A stretch of 37,007 bases of DNA from an uncultured Bacilli bacterium (GTDB taxonomy: Bacteria; Bacillota_I; Bacilli_A; RF39; UBA660), in assembly GCA_947626125.1 (NCBI GenBank), contig CANQRA010000008.1, positions 1-37,007 on the forward strand. The letters run 5' to 3'. The notes under the pieces were generated by a model, which worked only from the letters and a program-made list of their open reading frames with translations, searched no databases and had not been told where the DNA came from. Below are positions 4,961 through 20,056 of the stretch, piece after piece; within the stretch, counting starts at the first letter, position 1, and each line of letters starts with the position of its first letter. A program made the translations under genes and the position numbers.

Positions 4961-5764
4961 TTATTTATTTTCAATTTGCTTATTATCATCAACATATTTA
5001 TAATTTAAAGCATTATTACTGGAAACTGCCAATGTTTTTGTTTCTTTTTCATATAAATCTCGAGCACCTTTGGCAACTTTTCCTCCCCGTGCAGCTATTT
5101 CCCCAATGTCAGTCAAAGCTATTTCTATGTCGGTCATATTATCTCTTAAAGATTCTTTTCTCAACCCTTTATAAGCTTTATATTCACTAGCTTTCATTCC
5201 TGACCAGTTGCGATATATCTCATTTGTTAAAAGAGCAAATTCGATAGGTTTGTTAATGCCACCATCTTTCCAAGTATCGGTTAACTTAAAACGGTCGACA
5301 ATGCCAATTAATCTTTTCTTAATCCATTCATCACTATAGCCTTTATTGCGATAATAATTAACTGCCCTATTAACAGCTTTTTCAGGGTCAAATACTTCAT
5401 CAACTCTCTCTTTACCTAAACTGGCAAGCCAAAGTTTAAATGGCTCTGCTTTAGGGCTTGGAACCGACTCAATAAGGCGAAATATTCCCTCGGTATCTAA
5501 GGTATCGGTTAAATAACTTTTACCATCTTTTTTAGATTGCATTTTCAGTTGGTTAGTTTTACTAACCAACTCACTGCCCTCATCATTTAATTTGCCTTTT
5601 AACCATTTCCAATAATTTCTTGCTTTGTCATAATCATTGTTAGTTAAAGCACTTATAACATCAACTACACTAAAAAAATATTCCTCTGCTTCAGCATTCC
5701 AAATGCTTCTAATTTCTACTCCTTCGAATAAATTTGATATTGTTTGTAATTTGTTTTGAATCAT
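4961..5764 (-). CDS. Bro-N domain protein (BRO / phage antirepressor-like family)
   Basis: The 267-aa protein begins with a Bro-N-like DNA-binding domain (about residues 10-115): WNAEAEEYFFSVVDVISAL, then WKWLKGKL and LTDTLDTEGIFRLIESVPSP. These follow the BRO/antirepressor pattern. The C-terminal half (about 120-235) contains WIKKRLIGIVDRFKLTDTWK and ALLTNEIYRNWSGMKASEYK, as in chromosomal Bro-N proteins of gut bacteria. Such proteins are typical of phages and mobile elements, but a chromosomal regulatory role is possible. GGAGGTAGAGG precedes the ATG. It lies directly upstream of glyRS on the same strand, with no terminator between. Target and function are unknown. Confidence 0.8.
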   Translation of the reverse strand: MIQNKLQTISNLFEGVEIRSIWNAEAEEYFFSVVDVISALTNNDYDKARNYWKWLKGKLNDEGSELVSKTNQLKMQSKKDGKSYLTDTLDTEGIFRLIESVPSPKAEPFKLWLASLGKERVDEVFDPEKAVNRAVNYYRNKGYSDEWIKKRLIGIVDRFKLTDTWKDGGINKPIEFALLTNEIYRNWSGMKASEYKAYKGLRKESLRDNMTDIEIALTDIGEIAARGGKVAKGARDLYEKETKTLAVSSNNALNYKYVDDNKQIENK

Positions 5765-16364: not shown

Positions 16365-16550
16365 TTAATTATGATTTCTTTTATGAGAATTTTTGATTCC
16401 TTCTTCTTTTTTTATTCTTCTTTCCACTCCTGGTTTAACATGGAATTTTCTCTTTTTTACTTCTGAAGGGACTCCACTTCGTGCAACTTTAACTTTGAAT
16501 TTTCTTAATGCTGTGTTAATGTCTCCGTTTTGTACTACTACCTTTGTCAT
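16365..16550 (-). CDS. rpsU: 30S ribosomal protein S21
   Basis: A 61-aa basic protein with the S21 pattern ALRKFKVKVARSGVPSEVKK and an RR/KK-rich C-terminus. S21 binds the 3' end region of 16S rRNA and helps start-site pairing. GGGAGGG precedes the ATG. A near-consensus promoter lies 36 nt upstream. rpsU heads the rpsU-yqeY unit. Confidence 0.96.
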   Translation of the reverse strand: MTKVVVQNGDINTALRKFKVKVARSGVPSEVKKRKFHVKPGVERRIKKEEGIKNSHKRNHN

Positions 16551-16653: not shown

Positions 16654-16812
16654 TTAGCTAAGTTTACAAATACTACTTTCAAAAAGTCTTCTGATGGCTG
16701 AACCAATAGTTCTCCCAAATTCAAATATACTTTTCCCCGCATTAACTATACTAGTAACTAGGGCTGCAGATATACTACCACCTTGAACTTTCATTAACTC
16801 TTCATCACTCAT
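16654..16812 (-). CDS. bacteriocin-like peptide 2 (double-glycine leader)
   Basis: A 52-aa peptide missed by the ORF track. The leader MSDEELMKVQGG ends in GG, the cut site for C39 peptidases. The mature 40-residue part is amphipathic and cationic, with FGRTIGSAIRRLF near its centre and one Cys four residues from the end. The GR..GSAIRR pattern recalls predicted class II bacteriocins. The start at 16812 has AGGTGA at proper spacing; an ATG two codons earlier has none. It follows peptide 1 by 10 nt. A weak TTTGTAAA/TTTACAAA hairpin lies after the stop. Likely an antimicrobial or signalling peptide; activity is inferred. Confidence 0.75.
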   Translation of the reverse strand: MSDEELMKVQGGSISAALVTSIVNAGKSIFEFGRTIGSAIRRLFESSICKLS

Positions 16813-16822
16813 AGACATTCAC

Positions 16823-16966
16823 CTAACATTTCTTGGGATGCAAAATACCATCCAAAACTCCCGTCAAAAAGAGAACTACTCCGCCAATTAGGGACAACTG
16901 CAAATAATAAGTCGTTGAGACAGCTCCCCCATTTACATTCAACATTTCTTCATTATTTAATACCAT
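16823..16966 (-). CDS. bacteriocin-like peptide 1 (double-glycine leader)
   Basis: A 47-aa peptide missed by the ORF track. The leader MVLNNEEMLNVNGG ends in GG and shares the E/D..L..V.GG pattern of class II leaders. The 33-residue mature part is hydrophobic with a glycine-spaced helix (LSLIGGVVLFLTGVLDGIL) and ends HPKKC, so Cys is the last residue. AGGAGG lies 4 nt before the ATG. It starts 8 nt after the accessory gene and precedes peptide 2. The two could form a two-peptide bacteriocin. An alternative reading for the more hydrophobic peptide 1 is an immunity or helper peptide, but its GG leader argues for export. Confidence 0.75.
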   Translation of the reverse strand: MVLNNEEMLNVNGGAVSTTYYLQLSLIGGVVLFLTGVLDGILHPKKC

Positions 16967-16974
16967 ATTACCTC

Positions 16975-17388
16975 CTACTTAAATAAATCAAAAACATATT
17001 TGCACAGTTTTTCATCATCATAATAAATCGTTACTTTACCAACTTCATTATTATAAAAATTACCATCTAGTTTTAAACTAATACTTTCATAAATTATATT
17101 ATCGATAATGTCATATTCATTAAAACTTAGAACCGTATAACTTGTCGTAGTATCTTTAAATTTTAAAGTATTGCCTTTTTTAATTTTATCAGAGAGTTCA
17201 CTATTAATTTTTAAATTTAATACTCCATCATTTATAATACCATAATAAGTTATATTCTTTTTAACTTTAATAAAAAATGCTAGAAAAGAGACATACAAAA
17301 TAATAAATAGACCAAAAACAATAATAATATAATAATTTTTTTGTTCTAAGTTTTTTAATTTATCATAATTAACTTTAAAATAATCCAT
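16975..17388 (-). CDS. short membrane-anchored accessory protein of the bacteriocin exporter
   Basis: The 137-aa protein has a cytoplasmic start (about 1-19), one membrane helix (YYIIIVFGLFIILYVSFLAF) and a beta-rich outer part (about 48-137) with ITYYGIINDGVLNLKINSEL and KGNTLKFKD. The position directly after the ABC gene (TGATG stop-start overlap) and the single helix plus beta-barrel-like domain resemble a HlyD/BsaX-type accessory protein cut down to about a third of normal length. An immunity role cannot be excluded. I do not see the coiled-coil arm of normal HlyD proteins. Confidence 0.6.
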   Translation of the reverse strand: MDYFKVNYDKLKNLEQKNYYIIIVFGLFIILYVSFLAFFIKVKKNITYYGIINDGVLNLKINSELSDKIKKGNTLKFKDTTTSYTVLSFNEYDIIDNIIYESISLKLDGNFYNNEVGKVTIYYDDEKLCKYVFDLFK

Positions 17389-19430
17389 CACACTTCTCCT
17401 ATCTCAATAATTTTGGTAAAATTTTTAGTTTGATTTTTATGCGAAATGTAAATCAAAGTTTGATTTTTAAAATAATCATGGATATTTTTAATAATTTTAT
17501 CTTCTAAGTTTTTATCTACTTCACTTAAAGCTTCGTCTAAAATAATAATGCTAGCATCTTTTAATAGACCACGAGCTAAAATAATTCTTTGCTTTTCACC
17601 TCCGGAAATGTTTAAAGCTTCGTTTTCTATTAAGGCATCATATCTTAAGCTTTTCTTACTTACGATGTCTTCTAATTCACAAATGCGACAAACATTCTCA
17701 AATTTTTTTAAACTAACTTGCCGATTTAAAAGAATATTCTCTCTTATCGTGGCTGTGAATAATTCTTCATTTTGTGATACATATAAAATGTTATTTCTAA
17801 TTGTATTGATACTAAGGTCTTTAACATTTATATTATCAATTAAAATATCGCCATAATTAGCCTTTAAATCTTTGTGAATTAGTTTACAAATGGTACTTTT
17901 ACCCGAACCGGATTTACCATTTAATAAAATATGTTCCCCAGCATTAATATTAAAGCTTTTATTTTTTAAAATATAATCATAATTATTGTATGAATAAGAT
18001 ACTTTTTTAAAACGAATATTTCCTTTTAATACTTCTTTACTATCACTTATTTTTTCTTCTTCAATGTTAATAAACTCTTCTATTTTTCTAATTGTAGCTT
18101 TAATAAAGTTGTACTTAGGTAAAATGTTGATTATATTTTGAATTGAGGAAGTAAAATAGTTTAATATTAAATCGAAGGTGAATAAGTTTATAATATTAAA
18201 GTTACCTTTTAAAGAAAAATAAAGTCCAAAAGAATTGATTAAAAAGAACGCTGTTTCTAAAATTATATTCTTAATTAAGTTATAATTATTAAATTTATTA
18301 TTAAATTCATAATTATTAAGCAGATACTTAGATAAACTTTTTTCTATATTAAAAAGTCCCGTATTAATTAAATTTAAATTTTTAAGACTTTCTAAGCCCT
18401 TGATATTTTCTAAAACCACACTATGAAAAGTGGTATCATAATCAATATTCGTTAAGACATCTTTATAAATTAATTTACTTATAAAGAACCCATAGATTAA
18501 ATAAATAACCATAAAAATCATCAGAATTTGCCATAATAATTTATTAAGGGTATAGAGAATAAACATCGATGAAAGCATCATTAAAGTATCTAAGAAGCAT
18601 GAAACAAATATTTCGGAAAATAAACTTTTCACACTGCTAAGTTCATTAATACGCATCATAACTTCTCCTGTGCTCCTACTCTTGATGCTTTTAAAAGGAA
18701 GGTAAAAGATATGATGTAAAAATTCAGGGAATAAATAAACATCAACTAAATTATTTAAATGATTGAGATAATATTCTTTAATGTAGTTAAATAGACATTT
18801 AAATAAAATTAGGAAACCAAATATAACGAAAGCGTATTTTAAATAATCAACATTAGTACTTAAAATATTACTGCCAACTTTTAAATAGTAGCTACTTAAA
18901 ATTGATATAAGCGTTAAAACAATACTGGTTAAAATGATTTTAAATAAAAGACTTTTTTCATGACCAATAATCTTAAAAAATATTTTTCTTAAGGTTAGAC
19001 CCTTAGCCATTTTTATTAGTGTACTTCTTGGTTTGCAAAGAATTATGTGACCCGTGAATAATTTATTGAATTTTTCTTTACTAATAACTTTATCACCATT
19101 ACCTGGATCCATTATATAAATAGTTTTTGGTGATACACCCTTAACCACGACAAAATGTTCTAGACCATTTTCTAATGATAAGTGGGCAATTAAAGGAAAA
19201 CTAATATTATTTTTGGTAAGGTCTTTTTCAAATATTCCGACAGCATCAAAGCCCCATTTTTTGAAAGCATTAACGATTTGGTAGGCATTCGTACCATTGA
19301 TGTCCGTTAAAGTATCTTCTCTTAATTTTTCTAATGAGACATAACCATCATAATAGATAAAAATCCATTGCATACAAGAGATGCCACAGTCTTTAAAACT
19401 ACTACTTAAAACCGGCTTAATTTTTTTCAT
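17388..19430 (-). CDS. peptidase-domain (C39) ABC transporter for double-glycine peptides
   Basis: The exporter cuts GG leaders and pumps out the mature peptide. The 680-aa protein has an N-terminal C39 peptidase: Cys15 in KDCGISCMQ, His92 in LEHFVVVKG, Asp108 in MDPGNG. About six membrane helices follow (about 160-430). The C-terminal ATPase has Walker A GKSGSGKST, signature LNISGGEKQR and Walker B SIIILDEALSEVD. All three catalytic peptidase residues are present. It is the first gene of the locus, with the substrate peptide genes last. GGGAGG precedes the ATG. A TATATA-like element lies just upstream, but no clear -35 is seen. Confidence 0.92.
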   Translation of the reverse strand: MKKIKPVLSSSFKDCGISCMQWIFIYYDGYVSLEKLREDTLTDINGTNAYQIVNAFKKWGFDAVGIFEKDLTKNNISFPLIAHLSLENGLEHFVVVKGVSPKTIYIMDPGNGDKVISKEKFNKLFTGHIILCKPRSTLIKMAKGLTLRKIFFKIIGHEKSLLFKIILTSIVLTLISILSSYYLKVGSNILSTNVDYLKYAFVIFGFLILFKCLFNYIKEYYLNHLNNLVDVYLFPEFLHHIFYLPFKSIKSRSTGEVMMRINELSSVKSLFSEIFVSCFLDTLMMLSSMFILYTLNKLLWQILMIFMVIYLIYGFFISKLIYKDVLTNIDYDTTFHSVVLENIKGLESLKNLNLINTGLFNIEKSLSKYLLNNYEFNNKFNNYNLIKNIILETAFFLINSFGLYFSLKGNFNIINLFTFDLILNYFTSSIQNIINILPKYNFIKATIRKIEEFINIEEEKISDSKEVLKGNIRFKKVSYSYNNYDYILKNKSFNINAGEHILLNGKSGSGKSTICKLIHKDLKANYGDILIDNINVKDLSINTIRNNILYVSQNEELFTATIRENILLNRQVSLKKFENVCRICELEDIVSKKSLRYDALIENEALNISGGEKQRIILARGLLKDASIIILDEALSEVDKNLEDKIIKNIHDYFKNQTLIYISHKNQTKNFTKIIEIGEV

Positions 19431-19508
19431 CTTTTCCTCCCTTCTACTATATATATAACAACTTTCTCGCCCATTTCCTTTTTTTTTCGAAAACTTTTTA
19501 AAAAAACT

Positions 19509-19564: not shown

Positions 19565-20056
19565 ATGATTAATAAACAAAACTTATGGTTTGTAACTTTA
19601 TTTTCTTTAATCCTAATTTTAGGAATTTATTATGTTAGCATTGATGATGAAGTAGAAAGCGTTTTAAAAGCCGAGAATAATAACAATAAAGAAGTAATTG
19701 AGATAACGGAGTCAGATGTTTTAGTCGCTTTAGAAGTAGAAAGTGATGAGGAAAAACAAGCCTTGATGGAAGAATACCAAAATGTTTTATTAAATGCCGA
19801 AAGTACTATTCAAGAAAAAAATGCTGCTTATGAAAACTTACAAAAATTAAATAATACGAAAGCTAATGAAACGAAGATTAAAAATTTAATTAAAGAAAAA
19901 TTTCAAATGAATGCTTTTGTTAAAATAGATGATAATGCCATTAGCTTAGTTATTGCTGAGAAGGAACATAACACCGAAATTGCTAATAACATCATTAGAG
20001 AGGTGCAAAAACTATTTAACGAAGAAAAATATATAACTGTCAAATTTAATGCTTAA
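19565..20056 (+). CDS. spoIIIAH: SpoIIIAH-like stage III sporulation protein
   Basis: SpoIIIAH is the mother-cell protein that pairs with SpoIIQ across the intermembrane space of the engulfed forespore. The 163-aa protein has an N-terminal membrane helix (LWFVTLFSLILILGIYYVS), an acidic linker, a coiled-coil middle and the C-terminal ring-forming domain with FVKIDDNAISLVIAEKEHN then IIREVQKLF. The pattern and length fit. It stands alone here, whereas it is usually the last of eight spoIIIA genes. AAAGGAG precedes the ATG. The sigma-E-like promoter supports the call. Confidence 0.85.
   Translation: MINKQNLWFVTLFSLILILGIYYVSIDDEVESVLKAENNNNKEVIEITESDVLVALEVESDEEKQALMEEYQNVLLNAESTIQEKNAAYENLQKLNNTKANETKIKNLIKEKFQMNAFVKIDDNAISLVIAEKEHNTEIANNIIREVQKLFNEEKYITVKFNA

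Follow-up and report, generated by a model that had tools for sequence, protein, structure and literature searches.

A class-IIb-like two-peptide export cassette, likely under sigma-H-type control, conserved across a family of uncultured gut Bacilli

Two-peptide bacteriocins of class IIb, such as lactococcin G and cerein 7B/lactobin A, share three traits with the cassette described here: adjacent precursors with double-glycine (GG) leaders, GxxxG helices and a C39 exporter. CibAB of Streptococcus pneumoniae, with its small companion gene CibC, and CabAB of Streptococcus mitis are also two-peptide systems with GG leaders (PMC13059744). In pneumococcus, where CibAB is universal, its production follows the competence sigma factor and falls in the late phase of competence (PMC13059744). 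The CibAB/CabAB leaders are recognised by ComAB, which is encoded elsewhere, whereas the cassette reported here carries exporter, accessory protein and peptides together. We consider CibAB/CabAB to be its closest functional parallel: CibAB is core in pneumococcus and belongs to a late, sigma-factor-driven phase of competence, and our cassette is core in its family and has a promoter that appears to be of the sigma-H type.

The window (the whole stretch of 37,007 nucleotides that we analysed, from an uncultured Bacilli bacterium) carries four genes in tandem on its minus strand. They encode a C39 peptidase-ABC exporter of the PCAT1/ComA type (680 aa, 17388-19430), a mini-accessory protein with a single transmembrane (TM) helix (137 aa, 16975-17388, or 138 aa from an overlapping GTG), and two GG-leader precursors, PepA (47 aa, 16823-16966, leader ending VNGG) and PepB (52 aa, 16654-16812, leader ending VQGG). 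Coordinates and domains agree with the arrangement given in a preliminary description of this DNA. PepA lies 8 nt after the accessory gene, and PepB lies 10 nt after PepA. That description also called both ribosome sites good; the site of PepA is indeed strong (aggaggtaat), but that of PepB is only moderate (aggtg). Two neighbours give context only. Downstream lies rpsU (S21; 16365..16550, minus strand), followed by genes that we take, from synteny and sequence, to be yqeY, yqfC-like, yqfD-like, ybeY, dgkA and era. Upstream of the exporter is a divergent SpoIIIAH-like gene on the plus strand (19565..20056; PF12685, 4e-7), and a one-sequence profile located a similar gene at the equivalent position of 35 among 118 loci.

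The same four genes occur in identical order beside rpsU in 8/8 named close relatives, all uncultured Bacilli/Bacillota MAGs (one labelled goat rectum) with exporter identities of 57-63%, and the order is kept in nearly all of the approximately 150 family loci with complete sequence. Thus, the cassette is not a chance arrangement. In all eight named relatives, and at many other loci, rpsU and then yqeY lie 3' of the cassette. The exporter profile matches 257 of 291 family genomes and 142 of 150 genera, mostly in single copy, and the PepB profile matches 270 of 288 genomes of the order, every match falling inside one family. In a sample of the class, profile searches found PepB in 51 of 54 members of the family and in 0 of 341 genomes outside it. 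In 106 of 111 comparisons the nearest exporter was one from the same genus, as against about 1% expected by chance, which argues for vertical inheritance. Judged by these sequence comparisons, the cassette is an old, vertically inherited core trait of its host family, normally present in single copy. GG leaders, a C39 exporter and class-II-like cores would also be expected of an ordinary bacteriocin locus acquired horizontally by one genome. However, the gene order common to nearly all relatives, the same-genus nearest neighbours, the restriction to one family within the class and a plasmid search that returned no match refute a horizontal or plasmid origin, and we regard this explanation as extremely improbable. 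Membership of class Bacilli, small genomes and spore genes, SpoIIIAH among them, make RF39 the probable taxon (compare PMC10868615). A literature search on RF39 plus bacteriocin found nothing on the cassette; the IIBacFinder atlas may include PepA and PepB as unlabelled candidates. Several MAG contigs (L095, L139, L143 and L145) break off within one of the two peptide genes, a possible sign of strain-level variation there.

PepA consists of a leader of 14 aa (16925-16966) and a hydrophobic mature peptide of 33 aa with a net charge of +1, the last residue of which is Cys47. The leader of PepB is 12 aa long; its mature peptide of 40 aa has a net charge of +3 and contains GRTIGSAIRR, a GxxxG motif and Cys49. 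The earlier account of one hydrophobic and one cationic peptide, each with a single cysteine, is therefore correct. Across 47-49 diverse members, the GG, G36 and Cys47 of PepA are invariant and G40 and P44 exceed 90%, and the GG, the GxxxG and the one cysteine of PepB are all invariant. Typical cores read ..FxxGxxDGYxRPLxC in PepA and ..LGRSLGSAIRR..C in PepB. GxxxG is nearly invariant in PepA and invariant both in PepB and in PepC, a third gene that is described below. Because iterated profiles merged the PepA and PepB families, we classified the cores by motif instead. We do not claim a common origin for the two cores, as profile comparison aligns mainly the leader.

Window PepA matches NF038034 (5.4e-4, over residues 3-41) and window PepB matches PF10439 (1.9e-4), and the window peptides fall below the curated cut-offs of PF10439, TIGR03949 and NF038034. 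Among PepA relatives, TIGR03949 is matched by 39 of 47 (best 5.6e-9) and NF038034 by 26 of 47 (best 4.3e-9); the families best matched by the relatives are those of lactococcin G-beta and cerein 7B, and for PepA relatives these profile matches are weak to moderate. The arrangement itself resembles class IIb: two adjacent GG-leader precursors, a GxxxG-type helix-pairing motif in both peptides, and a dedicated C39 ABC exporter within the cassette. We are nearly certain that PepA and PepB form an exported GG pair, and a class-IIb-like pairing of the two is probable. In its anatomy the cassette is two-peptide bacteriocin-like, yet we stop short of a formal assignment to class IIb, since the window lacks the usual immunity gene and its peptides miss the curated cut-offs. 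It also differs from class IIb in its paired C-terminal cysteines, miniature accessory protein, family-wide core distribution and sigma-H-type promoter. The earlier reading of a two-peptide class II bacteriocin is well supported for GG export and class-IIb-like pairing, in keeping with the GxxxG motifs, the relatives' profiles and the cysteine covariation, but the curated cut-offs are missed, and the family-wide vertical core and the promoter point away from an ordinary acquired bacteriocin. Some loci depart from the usual layout. At L063, L015, L016 and L197, additional third GG peptides without cysteine lie before or between the pair, and at L094 PepA and PepB are separated by a methyltransferase-like gene, located 594-1277 nt past the stop codon of the exporter.

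The C-terminal cysteines of the two peptides vary together. Both are present in 137 adjacent PepA-PepB pairs, and the exceptions are spacing variants, third peptides and joint losses. Joint loss was found in a sublineage of genus g46 (PepA ..GIFCGLFEK, PepB ..GKNLRRLIFN) and in genome G152, while sister genomes keep both cysteines; parsimony places this loss as two changes on the tree. No clear case of the loss of one C-terminal cysteine was seen among adjacent pairs. That the cysteines are kept or lost together supports an inter-peptide disulfide, and this covariation is the best evidence for such a bond, short of proof. A disulfide had been suggested before; co-loss at least twice, and never clearly singly, strengthens this suggestion, and we now lean towards a PepA-PepB bond. 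The bond would require an oxidising exterior, which is uncertain in the anaerobic gut. In some g46 genomes (L014, L198-L202, L211 and L215) the PepA-PepB pair is present twice, and only one of the two pairs has the C-terminal cysteines. The PepA of the other pair has an internal cysteine (FCG) with no clear partner.

The exporter matches the Pfam C39, ABC membrane and ATPase domains (PF03412, 1.7e-28; PF00664; PF00005). Its closest solved chains are PCAT1 (4ry2) and ComA (8hf4), with residues 8-668 aligning to PCAT1 (E 1.5e-85), and it has the same domain order and catalytic triad as both. The triad, Cys15-His92-Asp108, is present and invariant in our alignment, and Pro109 is present as well. 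However, the oxyanion-hole position 9 is glutamine in 151 of 152 aligned exporters and serine in the window only, so that the earlier claim that all catalytic residues are present is right for the triad and wrong for Gln9. The serine also sets the window exporter apart from PCAT1 and ComA, from which it differs in cargo as well. Codon 9 (19404-19406) lies within the run AGTAGTAGT, and the serine is either a natural change or an assembly error. In CvaB, alanine or asparagine at the oxyanion-hole position had little effect (PMC3335142); thus, the window enzyme may still work. Because of Ser9 and a weak -10 element, expression or processing of the pair might be poorer in the window genome than in related genomes.

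The preliminary description noted no normal immunity gene. This is correct for the window, where no dedicated immunity gene lies between PepB and rpsU, but in many relatives this place holds an additional gene for a small membrane protein. This gene, PepC, is a short open reading frame without a GG leader, mostly of 42-63 aa, and is present in 63 of the 144 loci with enough sequence (for example L057, L070, L094, L113 and about 60 others). It is missing from the remaining 81 of 144 and from the window lineage, and on the exporter tree it switches between presence and absence 18 times. PepC begins near the end of PepB and usually overlaps the PepB stop codon, its start most often lying 6-15 nt ahead of this codon. 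Its features are a charged beginning, a single TM helix and, towards the C-terminus, a GxxxGT..R segment. No Pfam family matched PepC. It resembles the C-terminal half of PepB: in a profile comparison, it aligned with the final 31 columns of the PepB profile (probability 94%, pairwise E 8.6e-8). We propose that PepC is a candidate immunity protein that would act by imitating the PepB helix.

The accessory protein was modelled with AlphaFold as a helix, a TM helix, a beta-barrel and a C-terminal helix (mean pLDDT 94). In a fold search of this model, the adaptors MacA, BesA and Spr0693 ranked high with weak matches (E 0.03-0.3), and Pfam gave no HlyD match; on these results we do not assign the protein to the standard HlyD accessories. 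The NCBIfam family MAG1140 was matched by 18 of 97 accessory relatives (best 8.7e-8). The Mycoplasma Mbov_0121 exporter/MAG1140 system (NF045998/NF045999) likewise pairs an exporter with a matching mini-accessory protein, in the chromosomal region where the window has its cassette, but its exporter is only about 24% identical to the window type. Directly upstream of ybeY-cdd-era, 14 mycoplasma-like genomes carry genes for a C39 exporter and a MAG1140-type accessory protein. It is plausible that this locus and the family cassette descend from one ancestral locus. At the mycoplasma-like loci (L312-L325 and L342-L351), we looked for GG peptides near the exporter and found none.

The putative promoter of the cassette lies at 19451..19481 on the minus strand. 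Its -35 element, AAAGGAAAT (19473-19481), begins 51 nt before the exporter start and is perfect, and its -10 element, GTTATATAT, is degenerate. Close relatives have AAAGGAAAT upstream of the exporter, followed after about 12 nt by an AAT-containing -10. The -35 element falls at -56..-45 in 100 of 151 family loci, against 0-5 in other 12-nt windows, and promoters of score 14/15 occur 39 times against 3.2 times in shuffled sequences. At the family level the conserved upstream pattern is RNAGGAWWW-N11/12-RNN[G/T]AATAW, which matches the published sigma-H consensus, RNAGGAWWW / RNNGAATWW (PMC8510167). This match supports sigma-H-type control of the cassette, which we hold to be likely. With a strict pattern search, we located this element upstream of genes that we take, from their sequences, to be comEA-comEC (G025), spoIIAA (G048), recA (G081) and dnaG (four genomes); hits of the form TATGGCTCGTGAATA were set aside since they are located within a gene. 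In Listeria, sigma-H targets include comEABC and dnaG-rpoD (PMC4754846). Only 9 of 22 identified comEA starts had the motif, against a background of 7%. Most genomes encode full-length sigma-H-like proteins; every TIGR02859 match was below its curated cut-off, and thus a sigma-H orthologue is not certain. When we scanned the window for other promoters of this type, none of three 14/15 matches lay convincingly before a gene. In some genomes (L252, L262 and L263) the element also precedes FtsK-like and BRO/KilA-like genes; a similar BRO-like gene in the window (4961-5764) lacks it.

The cassette shares its sigma-H-type promoter with competence and sporulation genes, and C39 exporters such as ComA, to which our exporter is homologous, export signals. 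PepA and PepB could be a secreted pheromone pair through which the species would sense its cell density and time its competence or sporulation, and a core, usually single-copy and vertically inherited cassette would suit this role. However, neither the window cassette nor those of the named relatives include a receptor kinase or response regulator. In addition, the mature peptides are long (33-40 aa) and hydrophobic, and strictly paired peptides with GxxxG helices and paired cysteines are untypical of pheromones. We consider a pheromone role unlikely.

The distribution of PepB was compared with that of comEC and of sporulation genes. In a set of 98 genomes, 5 lack PepB and 12 lack comEC; comEC is absent from 5/5 genomes that lack PepB and from 7/93 others (p=1.2e-5). 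In a second set, comEC is absent from 4/14 PepB-lacking genomes, the other 10 retaining it, and from 0/36 PepB-bearing sisters (p=0.004). Both p-values are weakened by draft-genome completeness and shared ancestry, which partly confound them. This co-absence bears on the possibility that the pair is a self-acting envelope component, which would enter the producer's own membrane, for example to aid DNA uptake or the release of cell contents, and would be tuned by PepC. Near-universal presence, the many loci without an immunity gene, and the position beside PepB of a membrane-anchored look-alike all fit such a role. Nevertheless, we know of no precedent for it, the profiles resemble two-peptide bacteriocins, and some genomes have comEC without PepB. 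It seems quite unlikely to us.

A sporulation-specific system is less consistent with the data. Spore formation in the family, the divergent SpoIIIAH-like gene, the downstream yqfC and yqfD, the promoter element before spoIIAA and the presence of SpoIVA in 83 of 98 genomes could all point to sporulation. However, SpoIVA is absent from 2/5 genomes without PepB and from 13/93 with it (p=0.17), which is no association, and genomes that lack SpoIVA (among them G005, G036, G038, G057, G059 and G096) retain PepB, down to sizes of 0.5-0.6 Mb. Because of these genomes, a role in sporulation only is disfavoured, and we judge it very unlikely. Instead, a vertical, family-wide core together with a sigma-H-type promoter points to competence or transition-state physiology rather than to an ordinary acquired bacteriocin.

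Based on these results, we propose a model in which a core, class-IIb-like and sigma-H-driven two-peptide cassette would kill siblings or neighbours in the competence or transition state. We regard this as the best explanation and give it about even confidence. A sigma-H-type sigma factor of the transition state or of competence would transcribe the cassette. The C39 exporter, aided by the miniature adaptor, would cut both leaders after GG and export both peptides. Outside the cell, GxxxG helix contacts and a C-terminal disulfide between the chains would hold PepA and PepB together, and the linked pair would permeabilise the membranes of cells that are not running the programme. DNA or nutrients from these cells would then feed the producer, analogous to the proposal for CibAB in pneumococcus. 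Where present, membrane-anchored PepC would imitate the PepB helix and so prevent self-damage; as a small companion gene it would correspond to CibC in Streptococcus. Near-universal presence counts against this killing model, as it is unusual for a weapon. The lack of an immunity gene in the window and of PepC at 81 of 144 loci, and the imperfect -10 element and oxyanion residue of the window, also count against it. A more specific version, which we find unlikely as a whole, is that the disulfide-linked pair is a conserved part of the natural-competence programme of an entire uncultured gut order, acting on its own or sibling envelopes, with the membrane-anchored PepC look-alike as a regulator or immunity factor that mimics the pairing helix of PepB.

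As a rule, bacteriocin loci are mobile and their distribution is patchy. The cassette reported here is retained across a whole family of gut bacteria with reduced genomes, and it persists even where sporulation genes are gone and genomes have shrunk to about 0.6 Mb. This conservation, together with an apparent co-activation with DNA-uptake and early-sporulation genes, suggests that the pair is not an antibiotic picked up from elsewhere but an intrinsic means of attack or of modifying the producer itself. If the pair is a competence-linked killing or self-modifying system, a large group of uncultured bacteria would have a fratricide or DNA-acquisition programme of its own.
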